Assembly (NCBI GenBank): GCA_015493635.1
Contig: WGCU01000027.1
Location: 1 to 64,000 of the forward strand
DNA length: 64,000 nucleotides
DNA from: Spirochaetaceae bacterium
Lineage (GTDB): Bacteria > Spirochaetota > Spirochaetia > B11-G9
Direction of reading: 5' to 3'
Positions 41,203-49,019 of this stretch are shown piece after piece. The number at the start of each line of letters is the position of its first letter. Position 1 is the first letter of the stretch. The position numbers and the translations under genes are program-made. Under the pieces are notes generated by a model. That model made no database searches, was not told the DNA's origin, and saw only the letters and a program-made list of their open reading frames with translations.

Positions 41203-42311
41203 AAGATACGAACTATTACCTTGCACTTGATCTGGGAACAGGGCTCGGAACAAAACTTGCACTGTTTGAAGGGACTCAGAAACAGATCGCGGAAGATATT
41301 CTGAAAGTTGATAAGTATGGAGAGGGGTTTCATTCCTATGCGGCGGCACTTGAACGTGCAATTCGTATATTCATAAAAAAATCTGATGTTACTCTTAAAA
41401 AAATACGTGCAGTGGGTATTGCAAGTGCAGGAATCCTGAAAGATGATGGGACGTTTCAACTTATTCAGAATTCACCTGAGTTTAACGGATATAATCTGAA
41501 AAAAACCCTGGAAGATATCTTTAACCTTCCAACAGCAATTGATAATGATGCAAATGCGGGGGGGCTTGCAGAATGGAGCATTCTCCGTATGGAAATACTC
41601 TACTGGGTATTTGGAGGAGGCTGGGGGGGAGTATGGATTTCCAGAGAGGGGGATGTACGTTTTCCTGCTACCAACTGGGACGGCAGGGATGAATCGCTGC
41701 ACCCGACCAACGAACCGGGATACATTATTCCCCTGAACAAGCTTGATTTAAAAAATTTGTTCTATGAGGTACATGCTTCCTATGAACGTTTTGAAAGGAT
41801 CCTGGCTGAAGAAAAAGGGGAAAATGCTCTTACCGGACCCTGCGGCAGTACAGACACCCTGCGGGCGGAAGTTATCCTTTCCGGTCCGGGACGCTGCCGT
41901 CTTTTCAGAGCCATTGTCGGTGATGATACTTTCTATGAGCGTTTTCTTGATATTAGAGAAACAGAGAAAATGACTGATCCTTCTGTTGCCGGAGAATACA
42001 TAAGCAAGCTTTCCAGCATGAGGGTGGAATCAGCAATAAATACCGACAGATTGTACGGCAAGGTCCTTGCGTATGCTACCCGGGAACTTCTTCGAAGAGC
42101 AAGAAAAGACGGTATGCCTGAAAATATTCCCATATGTCTGGGAGGAAAGCCCAGCTACGCGCTGCCCTATTTCGGACCGTCCACGCAGCGGGTTCTCGGA
42201 AAGATGGGCTTTATGAATTATTTAAGACCTTCTGTCATTGATGAAAGAGGAATCAATGCAAACCTGATGGGAGCAGCAGTGCTGGCATCCAAGACTATCG
42301 GGATGCTGTAG
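41199..42311 (+). CDS. ROK family sugar kinase-like protein
   Basis: 'LALDLGTGLGTKLALFEG', 'AVGIASAGIL', 'AIDNDANAGGLAEW'. Confidence 0.8.
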   Translation: MKDTNYYLALDLGTGLGTKLALFEGTQKQIAEDILKVDKYGEGFHSYAAALERAIRIFIKKSDVTLKKIRAVGIASAGILKDDGTFQLIQNSPEFNGYNLKKTLEDIFNLPTAIDNDANAGGLAEWSILRMEILYWVFGGGWGGVWISREGDVRFPATNWDGRDESLHPTNEPGYIIPLNKLDLKNLFYEVHASYERFERILAEEKGENALTGPCGSTDTLRAEVILSGPGRCRLFRAIVGDDTFYERFLDIRETEKMTDPSVAGEYISKLSSMRVESAINTDRLYGKVLAYATRELLRRARKDGMPENIPICLGGKPSYALPYFGPSTQRVLGKMGFMNYLRPSVIDERGINANLMGAAVLASKTIGML

Positions 42312-43671
42312 ATTTCTCCGGTGCATCAAAAACTATCGTTGCACCTTCCACATTGATTACATCTCCCGGTTTTAATTCCCGCTTTTTTGTCAGATTGTTA
42401 TTGACGCTGATACTCTCATCCGAAAGTATTGTATATGTCCCTTTCTTTTCATCTCTCACTATTTCCGCATGGTTCTCTTTCATTTCTGAAATCCCCGCTA
42501 CGGTAAAATCTGCCTGAGGAGAACGGCCTATCACCGTCCGGTGCGAATCGATAACAATTGTCCGTTGCAGAGGTTTTCCTGTCCCTGTGGGAATCATGAA
42601 AATCTCAGCTGCTGATGCTGCCTTTTCAAAACGTATAAGCATTAAAAGAGCCCATAGTATCAGTGTCAGACCAAAAACAATGAGAGAAAACAAAACGGGT
42701 TTATCTGCTGGACTTCCCATCAGCGACCGGGCAGAATAGGTCCGGGTATCGGACACTCCCGCATAGCGGATGGTAACCGCCGGCGCTTCCAGAAATACAA
42801 GAGGAGCTGCCACGGTAAGCCTGTATTCTTTTTCTATCCGTTTTTTTATTTCACCATAAACACCGGAGAGTTCTCCGGCAGTTGAGGCACTGTACACTGT
42901 TCCCCCTGAGCCGGTACTTATGGAGGAAAGAGCCTTGTCCGTTCTCAGAGAAAAATTAATTCCATAAAGCGTAACACCGTCCTTCTGAAGAGGAATAAGG
43001 GCATCTTCCGGCTGATAAAGTTTTTCTCCGAAATCAGGATGAATCTTTCCCGATTTAGTAAAATAGGGATAGTTTTCTCCATCAGAAAGAAGAACAACAG
43101 CCTTTCTTCCAGAATACTTTGATAAATCTTCTGCTGCACGTCCAATAGAATAGTATAATTCAGTATACGCATCTTTATTATCCGGTTTTTTTATTTCGGA
43201 CAAAGCCGCTTCAACCGTATCCATATTATTTTCCGGTTCAGCCAGCAGATGATAGCGGGTATTAAACACTGCAAGACCAACCCTTACGTCATCATTATGA
43301 ATACTACCTAAAAAATCTTTCACAGCCCTGACAGCATGATCCATTCTGTGGGAGGTGTACATACTTCCGGAATTATCCAGGACCAGCAGAAAGGTAATCT
43401 TTGTATTCGATGATTCGTTTTTATCTATGCTTACAATTTCTGCCGGTGTCATTCCGTGTGCCGTTTCATGTTCCGCACGGAGAAGAGAAGAATTTACAGA
43501 GGAAAGAGGAACACCAGCCCTATCCGTTATACTCACATAGCAGTCTACCGTTGATGAAGTAAGCAGCTTTGCTGAATCTATCTGTGTAATTGTCAGGTTC
43601 TGTGCCGGAATGATTCCCGGCAGGAACAACACGCCTGCACATAAAAATATAATAATTCTATTTCTTTTCAT
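42295..43671 (-). CDS. VWA domain plus C-terminal FHA domain membrane protein
   Basis: MIDAS 'LVLDNSGSMYTSHRMD', 'VLLSDGENYP'; TM; FHA-like 'TVIGRSPQADFTVAGISEMKENHAEIVRD'. Confidence 0.88.
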   Translation of the reverse strand: MKRNRIIIFLCAGVLFLPGIIPAQNLTITQIDSAKLLTSSTVDCYVSITDRAGVPLSSVNSSLLRAEHETAHGMTPAEIVSIDKNESSNTKITFLLVLDNSGSMYTSHRMDHAVRAVKDFLGSIHNDDVRVGLAVFNTRYHLLAEPENNMDTVEAALSEIKKPDNKDAYTELYYSIGRAAEDLSKYSGRKAVVLLSDGENYPYFTKSGKIHPDFGEKLYQPEDALIPLQKDGVTLYGINFSLRTDKALSSISTGSGGTVYSASTAGELSGVYGEIKKRIEKEYRLTVAAPLVFLEAPAVTIRYAGVSDTRTYSARSLMGSPADKPVLFSLIVFGLTLILWALLMLIRFEKAASAAEIFMIPTGTGKPLQRTIVIDSHRTVIGRSPQADFTVAGISEMKENHAEIVRDEKKGTYTILSDESISVNNNLTKKRELKPGDVINVEGATIVFDAPEKSTASR

Positions 43672-43690
43672 CGTTCTCCTCCAGGGAAGA

Positions 43691-44575
43691 TTATTTCGGC
43701 AGGTACAAAAGTTTTGCATCTCCAAGCTGAATAACATCTTCATATTTCAGTTCATACTCCGCTGTTTTTTTGTCATTAACAATAACGGTTCCGTTTAACG
43801 GCTGAATGGATACTCCTCCCCGTCCTGCGGATAATACAGCATGATATTTTTCAACACCGCCATAGTTGCCAAGAGGAATATGAGCCCGCGGTGACGCTCC
43901 TATCCTTGTTTTCCGCATAACAAGTACATACTCTTTACCCCGGTACATACCGGTAAGAATTTTTATACGCCCGTACGAACGAAAATATTCAAAAAGAGAA
44001 AGGGCAAGTCCTGTACAGGCACCGAGGATCATTATCCCGGCGCCCCGTGCCGCAAGACTGTTTGCCCATTGTTTTACCAGGAATTCAAGTACCATCCCTC
44101 CTGTAATTCCTCCAATAAAACCACCAAGACTACCGATAGCGGTCCGCCTGAACGACATACTTCTTATTCCATCAATGGAACCGATAACAAGTCCAAGAAG
44201 AGCCCATCCAAACGTACGTGAAACAGGGACTATAACTGAATTTGTTGCGGAAGAAGAAAATATTTCAGTATTTCCAATCTGATACAGCAACCACTGAACG
44301 AGAAGAAGCGCCCCGGCTCCGCCGGCAAAACCCAGCAATGCTCCTGCAAATCCCCCCTTTACTGAACGGGAAGTGTCTGAAAACAGGATCCCTTCGGCAC
44401 TTCCGAAAAAAAATCCAAAAAGCAGCCCTATCGATCCGCCGGAAAGTATATTCCACACAAAATAGTTTCCAATCAGTTCACCGTAACTGAGAAGAATCTC
44501 AATGACTGCCCACGAGGCCGCGCCGGCAGTAAGACCAATGGCAACCATGAAAATTTTTTTAAAAAATGCTGTCAT
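43691..44575 (-). CDS. glycine-rich multi-TM protein with C-terminal FHA domain
   Basis: TM segments with GG motifs, then 'TRIGASPRAHIPLGNYGGVEKYHAVLS..GTVIVNDKKTAEYELKYEDVIQLGDAKLLYL'. Confidence 0.83.
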   Translation of the reverse strand: MTAFFKKIFMVAIGLTAGAASWAVIEILLSYGELIGNYFVWNILSGGSIGLLFGFFFGSAEGILFSDTSRSVKGGFAGALLGFAGGAGALLLVQWLLYQIGNTEIFSSSATNSVIVPVSRTFGWALLGLVIGSIDGIRSMSFRRTAIGSLGGFIGGITGGMVLEFLVKQWANSLAARGAGIMILGACTGLALSLFEYFRSYGRIKILTGMYRGKEYVLVMRKTRIGASPRAHIPLGNYGGVEKYHAVLSAGRGGVSIQPLNGTVIVNDKKTAEYELKYEDVIQLGDAKLLYLPK

Positions 44576-44584
44576 ACAAACTCC

Positions 44585-46447
44585 TTACTTTATCTCATAC
44601 CCAAGTTTACCCGTATTCGGATCCACGGTAGCCAGAATGGTAACCCCTTCTCCTTTTCTGATGGCCAGAGGAAAAGAGACATGATCTTTCATATACCGAA
44701 GGTCAAGGGTGTAGTGGGCAGGAGATATGTTCCCTTTAAAATGGAGACTCTTATTAAAATAAAGCACTGCAGGAACCTTATCCGCTGACAGGATATGATC
44801 TAAACCATTAAGCGTACATTTAATACCCTTCCTGTTTCTGCTTAGCACAAGTGTTCCGGGAAGCGGTACAAGTCCGGCATTTATATTCAGTACATTCTGA
44901 CCGGTTTCAATCTTAAGAGAAAATATTTTTGGATAATATCCTTCATGTTTTATCATGAATTTATAGATATTCCCCCCTGTTAAAGATTCAGTATCCGTCA
45001 AAGGAACCCATCTTCTGTTTTGAGAAAGAAAAACAGTAACGCCACTGGAAATTTTTTGATTATTCTCTGTATCAATAGCTATAACATGCACTGAAGTAGC
45101 ATAATGTGCTGCCGGTACCCTGTTTACCAGAATCACAGTACCTGATTTTTTTCCGGAAGTTCCTTTCGGCTGCACAAGAAAGGAGTACCAGGTAACCGAA
45201 TCTTCTATCTTTAACTTGGCCCTGTATGCTCCTGCGGGAAGAAATACCGGTACTGATGAAAACCGGTATCGGTCTGATCTCTTAAATTTTGTGTACAGAA
45301 AAATAACTCTCCGGTCTGGCACAGAAGGGATCTGTTTGTTATCGTCTTTATAGAGCCCGGCATTGAGATAAATCTTGTCAGGAGGCTGTGTCCCTTGGGG
45401 TATAAAAACAGAAAAAGTAACTGAATTATACTCCGAAGGATGAAGCAACGTATTATGAAAGCCGGTAAAATAACTGAATAATCCGGCAATGGTAAGAGTA
45501 CAGATTACAAAGGCAGCACTAATTCCTTTAAGAAGCAGACGCTTCTTTTTCCTCTGATGCGGCTTTTCCGGATCATCCCCTTTAGCCAAGCCTGCAACTG
45601 CTTCAGTGAGCTCTCCCTTGTCCCAGTGCTTAAGGTATCGTTCCAGTTCCTTGATAGCAGGTTCTAAATTCATGTATCTCTTCCCCGGATCTGTTCTCAT
45701 TGCTTTCCGGATAAAGGTCTTAAGCACCGGCGCAATATGAGGATTATACTTACGCGGCGGTGGATACTTTCCCTTTTGAATGGTAAGGACGAGATCAGGA
45801 CTGAAAAATCCCGGGAAGGGTTTTTTACCTGTACATAATTCATAGGCAAGCACTCCCAGCGCATATATATCTGCCCTTAAATCGACATTCTTTGTATTTT
45901 GAAACTGTTCAGGTGCCATATAACCGGGCGTACCAAGGCTCATGCCCTCCCGGGTGAGATCTTTTTCCAGGTCTTCATCAGAAACAGCAATACCAAAATC
46001 AACAAGCTTTACTTCTCCTGTTTTTGACAGAATTATATTTGCCGGTTTTATATCCCGGTGGATTACCTTTTTCTCATGAGCGTAACTCAGCGCTAAAGCA
46101 GCCTTGTACAGGATATATGCGGCAGTTCCGTTATCAAGATAGCGTTGTTTCTTTATAACGCTGTCCAGTGCACAGCCGTCTATAAACTCAAGGACTATGT
46201 AGTACGATGTCCCCAGCTTAAAGTGGTCATACATATTAACCACCCCGTCATGGCGGAAATCCATAAGAATTCTCGCTTCCCGTTTAAACCGCTCGGTAAT
46301 GTCCTTACGCCCTCTCAGAGTCAGCTTTTTAATGATAACGGGCCGGCCGAGAGTTGGATGAATAGCTTTATATACAGCTCCCATCCCGCCTTTGGCAATA
46401 AGTGATTCAACCTTGTACTTTCCTATACTTTCAGGGATTCGCGCCAT
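44585..46447 (-). CDS. Hanks-type serine/threonine protein kinase, membrane-anchored
   Basis: 'KVESLIAKGGMGAVYKA', 'VIHRDIKPANIILSKTGEVKLVDFGIA', 'GTPGYMAPEQF', TM near residue 320. Confidence 0.95.
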   Translation of the reverse strand: MARIPESIGKYKVESLIAKGGMGAVYKAIHPTLGRPVIIKKLTLRGRKDITERFKREARILMDFRHDGVVNMYDHFKLGTSYYIVLEFIDGCALDSVIKKQRYLDNGTAAYILYKAALALSYAHEKKVIHRDIKPANIILSKTGEVKLVDFGIAVSDEDLEKDLTREGMSLGTPGYMAPEQFQNTKNVDLRADIYALGVLAYELCTGKKPFPGFFSPDLVLTIQKGKYPPPRKYNPHIAPVLKTFIRKAMRTDPGKRYMNLEPAIKELERYLKHWDKGELTEAVAGLAKGDDPEKPHQRKKKRLLLKGISAAFVICTLTIAGLFSYFTGFHNTLLHPSEYNSVTFSVFIPQGTQPPDKIYLNAGLYKDDNKQIPSVPDRRVIFLYTKFKRSDRYRFSSVPVFLPAGAYRAKLKIEDSVTWYSFLVQPKGTSGKKSGTVILVNRVPAAHYATSVHVIAIDTENNQKISSGVTVFLSQNRRWVPLTDTESLTGGNIYKFMIKHEGYYPKIFSLKIETGQNVLNINAGLVPLPGTLVLSRNRKGIKCTLNGLDHILSADKVPAVLYFNKSLHFKGNISPAHYTLDLRYMKDHVSFPLAIRKGEGVTILATVDPNTGKLGYEIK

Positions 46448-47453
46448 AGAGCTCCACTCCTTTACGAGGCAGAATAATAATATTTTTATCAGAAGAAAAC
46501 TTTGCCATATCAGTGATAAATACTACATTATATGTATCAGGATTATGGATCTGAATAAACTTTCCCTCAGCCCGGGTACGGTATCTGCCGGGTACGGCCC
46601 GGTGTCCGCCGAACATCCGGGCAGCAGGATTCCGGGGGAAATATTCTTCAAGATAAGCTGCAACACTTCCCTCTTCCGCTCCTCCGTTTGGAGTCCAGGT
46701 AAGGTCAAAAAGAATCTCCCTCTTAATGAGAGCATCTATCAGTTCCTTCCGGGAATGATATCTCCGTGGTTCGGCGTGTGTGACACAAAACCCGTTTCCT
46801 ACAGCAAATCCCGGTAATCTTTTTTCAAATTCATAGTACTTCCAGAATATATCCTCCGGTATGAACCGGTGAAACCATGAGGCAACCATGGCACCTTCAT
46901 ACACAAACTTACCAAAAGACCTGTTATCTTCAGAATTCTCATTGGCAATATTTTCATGGTTCCCCTTTAAGAAATGGAAACTGTCCGGAAAAGATGCTTT
47001 AAGTTCCATCACCATCATCATGACACCAAGGCTTTCCCTCATTTCATCATCCATCGCTTTGTGCTTTCTAAAGCCGCCTCTATATTCTTCAAAAGCTGTA
47101 CGCCACCGCTTAACAGCCCTTGTTTCAGCATGGAAGCCATCTCCAACACAAACAATCTGAATCTGGTTTTTCTCCAACGCCTCAAATACCGGCAGGGTAC
47201 TGAACGGAGGTTTCCAAGAAAGAAGTGATCCCAGAAATCCAGTCCGTGCATGAAGATCCGGAACAATAATTGTCGGAAGGGCTTTAAGTAGAATAAGCCC
47301 TCCTGGTTCACCGCTGCTCCCGGGAGGACGGATAGACGGAGATTCGTTTTTTAATGCATACAATACCTTCTCCAGAGAAATTCCGATCTCCCGTGGATCA
47401 GGAAAAGTCTTTCCCGCCATTCCGCGTATTCCTTCCAGTATCCTATTCATCAT
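46431..47453 (-). CDS. metallophosphoesterase (PPP-like)
   Basis: 'IIVPDLHARTGF', 'CVGDGFHAETRAVKRW', 'FLKGNHENI', 'FCVTHAEP', 'FGGHRAV'. Confidence 0.83.
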   Translation of the reverse strand: MMNRILEGIRGMAGKTFPDPREIGISLEKVLYALKNESPSIRPPGSSGEPGGLILLKALPTIIVPDLHARTGFLGSLLSWKPPFSTLPVFEALEKNQIQIVCVGDGFHAETRAVKRWRTAFEEYRGGFRKHKAMDDEMRESLGVMMMVMELKASFPDSFHFLKGNHENIANENSEDNRSFGKFVYEGAMVASWFHRFIPEDIFWKYYEFEKRLPGFAVGNGFCVTHAEPRRYHSRKELIDALIKREILFDLTWTPNGGAEEGSVAAYLEEYFPRNPAARMFGGHRAVPGRYRTRAEGKFIQIHNPDTYNVVFITDMAKFSSDKNIIILPRKGVELYGANP

Positions 47454-47963
47454 TTATTCAAATATGAGGGTTTTGTTAACTTCAATAAAATCGTCTGCAA
47501 GCACCTGCGTAACATCCATGAGCAGATTTTCATCCTTAATAATAACAATCTTGTATACAGGAGAACTCTTGAGTATGGGACCAATCAAAAATTCTGCCGA
47601 TTCTCCGGGAACCACATCTCCTTTCAATGTTGATCCGCTCTTTTCGGCCCGTTCAGGAACATCGGTACGTAAACCGATACTTGCGTATTCCACCCTTCGC
47701 CCATCTTCTTCCAGCGGTCCAATGGTCAGCAACGATCCTGACTGTGTCATTATTAATCCGCCTCTTGTTTCATCGGCAGCATAAACATCCGATTCCTCAA
47801 GGTTCCTTTCGGATACCTGATTATTGAAGTGCTCTTCCTTTTCAAGCCATCCCCTGGCAAGAACTTCCAGCGCATCTGCACCTTCCGGTAAATTTATCGA
47901 ACCGGCAAGCTGCTTTAAATGATTTTGTACCTCTTCCGGTACTTTTGCAAAAAAATCACTCAT
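47454..47963 (-). CDS. conserved protein of unknown function, paralog of the N-terminal half of 48081-48956
   Basis: 'ETRGGLIMTQSGSLLTIGPLEEDGRRVEYASIGLRTDVPE'. Confidence 0.7.
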   Translation of the reverse strand: MSDFFAKVPEEVQNHLKQLAGSINLPEGADALEVLARGWLEKEEHFNNQVSERNLEESDVYAADETRGGLIMTQSGSLLTIGPLEEDGRRVEYASIGLRTDVPERAEKSGSTLKGDVVPGESAEFLIGPILKSSPVYKIVIIKDENLLMDVTQVLADDFIEVNKTLIFE

Positions 47964-48039
47964 CTTTTACCTCCACATGGTTTATCTACATCCATATATA
48001 CTACTATTTTCCATAAAAAACCATTTTTTTCGTAAATAT

Positions 48040-48068
48040 TTGAAAATAATTACTTTCCGTGCTATACT
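48040..48068 (+). promoter_or_regulatory. sigma-70 type promoter
   Basis: TTGAAA-17 bp-TATACT just upstream of the ORF starting at 48081. Confidence 0.7.
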
Positions 48069-48080
48069 TCCACCATATAC

Positions 48081-48956
48081 ATGAAGGAGCGAATAGTGTC
48101 ATTTAATTCATTGCCAGCAAACATCAGAATGCATCTTGAATCTCTGATAAAGATATCAGAACTACCGGATACCAATGATTTCCGGGAAATCCTTGCGGAT
48201 ACATGGAACAAAAAATGTCTTTTATTTGAGCAGCAGACAGGAATGCTTGACTTGGAGATGATTGAAACCTTTCCGGAGACTGATCCCCGCGGTATTATTG
48301 TATTAACCTATTCAGGATCCATCCTCAGTATTGGACCTCTGGAAGAAGAAAAGACAAGGGAGGTAGAATACGCAAGTATCAGCCTCCGGAGTGATGTACC
48401 CAAAACAGTTTCCATAGTTAATACCGCATTAGGCGCACCTGTTAAAACCGGTTCATCAATTGTATTTTCCAGAGGAAAATTAAAAAAAACATCGGCAGTT
48501 TATAAAATAGCTGTATGTAATACTTCCATTCCCACAGAGACGCAGAAAGAGCGGATACATGAGGGTATGATTTTTCTTACCAACGGTTTCATGAAAATCA
48601 ACCGTAGTATCTACATAGACAAAACAAATATTCCGGATCAGTTTACCGCAAAATCCATGGCAAGATATATAGCAAAAAAATATAATATAACTGGTACTCT
48701 GGCCAAAAAGATTATTGATGACTACATCCTTCTTATTGAGACAGGAATGATGCTTGGAGAAAGTGTGCCATTAGGACGGATTGGACGATTTTCCCTAAAA
48801 CAAAAAGGCCCCCAGAAAGCAAGAATACTGCGGCATCCCGAAACAGGGGAAGAAATAACCGTTAAAGCAAAGCCTCCGGTATCCGTACCCAAAATATCCT
48901 TCAGCACCTATATAAAAGAGAAAGCGGCATCATTGAAGGACGATACTATCGTTTAA
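48081..48956 (+). CDS. unknown N-terminal domain fused to HU/IHF-like DNA-binding domain
   Basis: N-terminal 'DPRGIIVLTYSGSILSIGPLEEEKTREVEYASISLRSDVPK'; C-terminal 'AKKIIDDYILLIETGMMLGESVPLGRIGRFSLKQKGPQKARILRHPETGEEITVKAKPPVSVPKIS' HU-like. Confidence 0.8.
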   Translation: MKERIVSFNSLPANIRMHLESLIKISELPDTNDFREILADTWNKKCLLFEQQTGMLDLEMIETFPETDPRGIIVLTYSGSILSIGPLEEEKTREVEYASISLRSDVPKTVSIVNTALGAPVKTGSSIVFSRGKLKKTSAVYKIAVCNTSIPTETQKERIHEGMIFLTNGFMKINRSIYIDKTNIPDQFTAKSMARYIAKKYNITGTLAKKIIDDYILLIETGMMLGESVPLGRIGRFSLKQKGPQKARILRHPETGEEITVKAKPPVSVPKISFSTYIKEKAASLKDDTIV

Positions 48957-48960
48957 AAAC

Positions 48961-48995
48961 ACACCGGCCGGAAAGCAAATCTTTCCGGCCGGTGT
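48961..48995. terminator. strong hairpin, probable (bidirectional) terminator between convergent genes
   Basis: ACACCGGCCGGAAAG-caaat-CTTTCCGGCCGGTGT, perfect 15-bp stem; T tract mainly for the minus strand. Confidence 0.8.
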
Positions 48996-49019
48996 AAAAT
49001 CTTTGAACTTTGACTAATG

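Follow-up and report, generated by a model that had tools for sequence, protein, structure and literature searches.

A conserved Ser/Thr phospho-signalling operon of spirochaetes with a new domain family and a plausible DNA-facing output

A window of 64,000 nucleotides from a Spirochaetaceae bacterium (contig WGCU01000027.1 of assembly GCA_015493635.1, positions 1 to 64,000) was analysed and found to carry a strongly conserved phospho-signalling operon. The operon encodes a small protein of a new domain family (U1), a PPP-type metallophosphoesterase, a Hanks-type Ser/Thr kinase and two membrane proteins with FHA domains, termed memFHA and VWA-FHA. A divergently oriented gene encodes U2-HU, a paralog of U1 that is fused to a DNA-binding domain of the HU type (Table 1). 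The operon belongs with the kinase/phosphatase/FHA operons already known and differs from them in its new domain family and a plausible new output. Literature searches did not uncover a description of this system in the papers that they covered.

Gene order and distribution

The order U1, PPP, kinase, memFHA and VWA-FHA, together with a usually divergent U+HU paralog, recurs in about 20 spirochaete families. In a comparison of related neighbourhoods it was present in nearly every family that carries the cluster, with cluster proteins sharing about 30-50% identity outside the family of the analysed genome. The genes that flank the cluster in the window are not conserved beside it in related loci. 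Because the order is conserved over about 20 families while the flanking genes are not, the arrangement is far beyond chance. The initial annotation had proposed a coherent phospho-signalling operon and had named a lack of co-conservation in related genomes as a result that would speak against it; the neighbourhood comparison bears the proposal out. In most families the U+HU paralog is divergent beside U1; the others have it at another place in the genome.

A scan of named genomes yielded 78 loci, among them Breznakiella homolactica, Marispirochaeta associata, Alkalispirochaeta alkalica and Thalassospirochaeta. The whole five-gene order is present in 44 of these loci, although in a few the membrane genes appear to be fused; the remainder are mostly cut by contig ends, and in about 13 U1 is followed directly by the kinase without a PPP gene. 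Among 59 relatives, U1 is present in 25. A full-length memFHA was found in 23/25 genomes with U and in 0/34 genomes without it (Fisher 2e-14, phylogeny not corrected). In one of the two exceptions the contig ends inside the cluster, and in the other the sole U is of a third type. Outside the spirochaetes, a core of U, kinase, memFHA and VWA-FHA lacking PPP was observed in a subgroup of Lambdaproteobacteria/SAR324-like metagenome-assembled genomes (MAGs), where U is present in 8 of 52 genomes. One MAG labelled Neomarinimicrobiota carries the cluster as well; it may be misassigned, since none of 119 other genomes of this phylum has the cluster.

All six genes were found where the initial annotation had placed them, and the 17 bp shared by the PPP and kinase genes (46431-46447) were confirmed. 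The six gene calls stand apart from the start of VWA-FHA, which had been set at 43743. A start at 43671 is likelier, as the resulting protein (MKRNRII...) begins with a signal peptide and agrees with the start of its homologs. With this start, the overlap with memFHA disappears.

Table 1. Features of the operon, the divergent gene and the region between them
Feature	Position in the window	Strand	Description
U1	47454..47963	-	169 amino acids, stand-alone U domain, first gene of the operon
PPP-type metallophosphoesterase	46431..47453	-	motifs PDLHxR / GDxxHxE / KGNHEN / HxEP / GGHR
Hanks Ser/Thr kinase	44585..46447	-	kinase domain, one transmembrane helix, extracytoplasmic domain
memFHA	43691..44575	-	glycine-rich, multi-pass membrane protein; C-terminal degenerate (YscD-like) FHA domain
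VWA-FHA	42295..43671	-	signal peptide, extracytoplasmic VWA, transmembrane helix, degenerate cytosolic FHA
U2-HU	48081..48956	+	U-domain paralog with C-terminal HU/IHF DNA-binding domain (HU ~48645-48923)
41-bp A-tract element, imperfect dyad	48007..48047	+	divergent promoter region; candidate operator
Sigma-70-like promoter of U2-HU, TTGAAA-17-TATACT	48040..48068	+	consensus match only
Terminator-like hairpin, strong	48960..48996	-	bounds the unit after U2-HU

Kinase and phosphoesterase

The kinase matches the Pfam protein kinase model with 166 bits. Its cytosolic kinase domain (residues 11-258) is followed by a transmembrane helix (residues 309-327) and an extracytoplasmic part in which no Pfam domain was found. 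Consistent with the expectation of an intact Hanks-type enzyme, the VAIK lysine (K40), the glutamate of helix C (E57), HRD, N137 and DFG are all kept, and these positions as well as the activation-loop Thr are 93-100% conserved in 87 sequences. The genome is 98% complete, and no second PF00069 match was found in it. A PASTA-type cell-wall kinase (PknB/StkP, NF033483) was considered and rejected, as the match reached 243 bits against a cut-off of 450 and the extracytoplasmic part has no Pfam domain. In locus L136 (8909-10858), a kinase gene is divergent from a U+HU gene and the remaining operon genes are absent.

The phosphoesterase scores 20.6 with the Pfam Metallophos model, just below the cut-off of 21.5. 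The metal ligands of the PPP family (D66, H68, D105, N165, H166, H226 and H284) are 100% conserved in 76 sequences, and an AlphaFold2 model with a predicted local distance difference test score (pLDDT) of 90 gave PP1 and PP5 as best fold matches (E ~1e-10, template modelling score ~0.58). The canonical second motif GDxxDRG is replaced by GDxxHxE, which is invariant. Because of this motif, the protein is assigned to a divergent PPP subfamily, with predicted catalysis. Judged by their residues, both kinase and phosphatase would be catalytically competent.

Membrane FHA proteins

The VWA-FHA protein matches both VWA and FHA in Pfam, and the metal ion-dependent adhesion site (MIDAS; DxSxS, T, D) of its VWA domain is complete, with D99, S101, S103 and D197 conserved to 100% and T170 to 98%. 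In locus L039 (5118-6598), which belongs to the complete genome G053, the VWA-FHA frame is in two pieces, possibly due to a frameshift. memFHA has FHA/YscD-like matches in Pfam (Yop-YscD_cpl, 35.7 against a cut-off of 33.2).

Phosphothreonine binding by FHA domains depends on the motifs GR, SxxH and NG (PMC1262709). The initial annotation had regarded both membrane FHA domains as phosphothreonine readers, and this view does not hold. The Arg of GR is present in 5/69 memFHA and 3/70 VWA-FHA sequences, the Ser of SxxH in 7/69 and 5/70, respectively, and the Asn of NG is conserved in neither. By this measure, both domains have lost the phosphothreonine pocket and would be phosphate-blind. Owing to this loss, they probably act as scaffolds. 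These FHA domains are thus co-conserved with a kinase although phosphate binding has been lost.

The U domain and its fusion to HU

As had been proposed, U1 is a paralog of the N-terminal part of the divergent gene product (39% identity, E 1.9e-22). Searches of U against Pfam, NCBIfam, PHROGs and PDB sequences gave no match. Modelling of U1 alone with AlphaFold2 resulted in a confident structure (pLDDT 89, predicted template modelling score 0.84) that consists of N-terminal helices, seven strands and a long C-terminal helix. With this model, Foldseek found no convincing match in PDB and viral structures, the leading template modelling scores being below 0.3 on the query. RanBP-like PH and cNMP beta-roll folds head the PDB list without real superposition and were rejected. 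U is a new domain family; the match to a known family with an unrelated role, which the initial annotation had named as a second result that would speak against it, did not appear. Residues common to 39 sequences are W39, K42, F46, S75-G76-S77, Y93, S95, R99, P103, S134 and N163. In a tree, U1, U2-HU, the third paralog (U3), the SAR324 copies and the distant copies form separate groups, which is consistent with old duplications.

Residues 189-281 of U2-HU match Bac_DNA_binding with 43.2 bits against a cut-off of 22.4. The HU beta-arm, with its signature RxxPxTGE, is conserved over 83 sequences (R248 97%, P253 87%, T255 96%, G256 97%, P270 96%). Both the model match and the beta-arm place this part among HU/IHF DNA-binding domains and support the earlier suggestion that the fusion is a plausible DNA-facing output. 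Linkage of U to HU was found in three lineages: as a fusion in spirochaetes, as a nearby HU gene in SAR324 (six loci, L155-L159 and L161) and as two HU genes after U in the distant relative L163.

The divergent promoter region

The sequence between U1 and U2-HU at 48007-48047, TTTTCCATAAAAAACCATTTTTTTCGTAAATATTTGAAAAT, contains an imperfect dyad (TTTTC…CCA…CG…GAAAA). A profile of this element, built from 11 loci, was searched over 2.2 Mb of related loci and recovered it in loci outside the profile set, namely L088 (1.6e-9), L108, L089, L115, L095 and L133. All matches lie between the U1 and U2-HU genes, and elsewhere in the 2.2 Mb nothing was found below E 0.1. At its right end, the element shares bases with the predicted -35 box of the U2-HU promoter. 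The 41-bp element is a candidate operator. In 1.05 Mb of the organism's own genome, about a third of it, the element is present in one copy. A large regulon was therefore rejected, as no second copy lies within this 1.05 Mb.

FHA proteins with an intact pocket in relatives

Some relatives encode a small FHA protein of about 112 amino acids, in which an invariant Thr4 (DETI motif) precedes a canonical FHA domain. Its pocket is intact, with R, S, H and N of the motifs present in 13/13 sequences and the G of NG in 9/13. It occurs in 15 of the 59 relatives, and all 15 carriers have U (Fisher 8e-8). The conserved N-terminal Thr before a canonical FHA domain recalls GarA/OdhI, and the protein also recalls the self-binding FHA of Bdellovibrio DgcB (PMC6733907). 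Genes for small FHA proteins were observed near U or U2-HU genes in L077 (7558-7893), L071, L083, L093, L099, L120, L135, L137 and L186. In the own genome, a PF00498 search did not find such a protein; this search missed both degenerate FHA domains too, and so shows only the absence of a strong canonical FHA.

In six cases an FHA-LuxR (GerE) regulator is divergent from the third U paralog, at L055 (9310-9855), L064/L113, L131, L138, L140 and L193. Its pocket is likewise intact (R, S, H and N in 5/5, G of NG in 5/5). Together with the HU linkages, this DNA-binding regulator makes the association of U with DNA-binding proteins a recurrent one.

Proposed mechanism and alternatives

We tentatively interpret the whole as a Ser/Thr phospho-signalling module that spans the membrane and ends in the cytosol with the U1/U2-HU pair facing the DNA, and we place this interpretation slightly below an even chance. 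The extracytoplasmic VWA domain and the extracytoplasmic domain of the kinase would sense the state of the envelope or of a ligand, while memFHA and the FHA tail of VWA-FHA would serve as phosphate-blind scaffolds that keep the complex together. A cytosolic partner would be phosphorylated by the kinase and dephosphorylated by the PPP. The U1/U2-HU pair is the likeliest candidate; in relatives, the GarA-like FHA protein is possibly also a target of both enzymes. U1 may pair with U2-HU via the U domains, and this pairing would alter DNA binding of the HU domain at the 41-bp element. Bound at the shared divergent promoter, U2-HU might tune the expression of the system, and perhaps it binds elsewhere. 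For HU of Deinococcus, phosphorylation is known to alter DNA binding (PMC9900698).

A more specific claim is that the only Hanks kinase directly controls an HU-type chromosome protein, with phosphorylation of the new-fold domain common to U1 and U2-HU setting DNA binding and bending by U2-HU. We consider such direct control unlikely. If it were true, no classical response regulator would be needed to carry an envelope signal to the nucleoid.

Several observations weigh against the proposed module. Neither U1 nor U2 has an obvious conserved exposed Thr as phospho-acceptor, and the invariant likely phospho-acceptor lies in the small FHA protein, which was not found in the own genome. SAR324 clusters lack both PPP and the U-HU fusion, and about 13 of the 78 named loci have no PPP, so that the core can do without either. 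Of 44 divergent pairs, just 18 carry the element, and some of the rest have diverged variants. Its conservation may partly be that of promoter sequence, because its ends double as -35 boxes.

The alternative that survives best assumes that the kinase acts on substrates elsewhere, in the envelope, division or metabolism, that U1 is an accessory protein or adaptor, and that U2-HU is a mere local autoregulator and not a phosphorylation target. As the sole Hanks kinase in the cell, the enzyme may serve many substrates, the SAR324 core does without U-HU, and the GarA-like FHA protein that co-occurs with U looks better as a substrate on account of its invariant N-terminal Thr. The single copy of the element in the sampled third of the genome fits local autoregulation. 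On the other hand, U was duplicated long ago, both U1 and U2-HU have been retained together as separate groups, and the repeated independent linkage of U and HU genes suggests more than promoter control. We regard this alternative as a real possibility, albeit a doubtful one.

Alternatively, the membrane proteins could form an envelope machine, for instance a ring for secretion or surface assembly, with phosphorylation as its switch, as in the threonine-phosphorylation pathway of the type VI secretion system (T6SS), and with the U proteins as cytosolic regulators. Rings of this kind typically contain FHA domains that are phosphate-blind, memFHA lies above the Yop-YscD_cpl cut-off and the extracytoplasmic VWA has a complete MIDAS. 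However, the YscD model also matches canonical FHA domains, which makes the match weak evidence, no recurring secretion genes were noticed beside the cluster, although no systematic search was made, and the linkage to DNA-binding proteins is constant. An envelope machine appears improbable to us. An anti-phage defence system, suggested by matches of PADLOC PD-T4-6 models of up to 257 bits, was rejected, since these are generic matches limited to the kinase domain, the other genes have no PADLOC match, and the order is conserved over families in changing surroundings instead of being patchy as in defence islands.

Comparison with known systems

The favoured signalling module resembles the actinobacterial PknB/PknG-GarA/OdhI system, in which a membrane Hanks kinase, a protein phosphatase and FHA proteins are encoded together. 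There, however, the phosphatase is a PP2C and not a PPP, whereas here the FHA domains of the operon are phosphate-blind, the kinase lacks a PASTA domain, and the U domain and the U-HU fusion are added. With the T6SS threonine-phosphorylation pathway (PpkA-Fha-PppA) it shares a kinase, a phosphatase, FHA and VWA at the membrane, and memFHA resembles the cytoplasmic domain of the FHA proteins YscD/SctD. In contrast to the T6SS pathway, no secretion genes were noticed nearby, the phosphatase is a PPP instead of a PP2C, and U and HU proteins are present. The archaeal ArnA-ArnB-ArnC motility module likewise has FHA and VWA partners under a Ser/Thr kinase that act on gene expression; there, ArnA and ArnB are separate and the FHA of ArnA reads phosphorylated motifs (PMC6509490), whereas here a single membrane protein combines VWA and FHA, and it is an HU fusion that faces the DNA. 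HU-family DNA binding under Ser/Thr phosphorylation, here proposed only, has parallels in DrHU (Thr37, PMC9900698) and mycobacterial HupB. Those are ordinary HU proteins, whereas the HU part found here is joined to a new domain and has its candidate kinase and phosphatase encoded alongside.

Ser/Thr phosphorylation of spirochaetes has been little studied, and for T. pallidum and B. burgdorferi the kinases reportedly had not been identified (PMC1262709). Even so, a broad range of free-living members of the phylum keep this one kinase operon intact. With a kinase, a domain family that lacks a known fold, and an HU fusion, the operon offers a compact and testable path from membrane to DNA.

Other arrangements of U genes

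In L061 (8196-9092), L171 (8442-9464) and L172 (5080-5970), U is fused to another C-terminal helical region (KNRDDLFNKWIILDWF...) that has no Pfam match. Distant U homologs (E ~1e-15) were detected in L162 and L164-L170, from families outside the class, and no such kinase was found beside them. In L163 (8104-10023), U is followed by an HU gene and then by a gene for a protein with an N-terminal HU domain, a transmembrane helix and a C-terminal region. This last region appears LysM-like by eye, with no Pfam match, and the protein might be a tether between chromosome and envelope.

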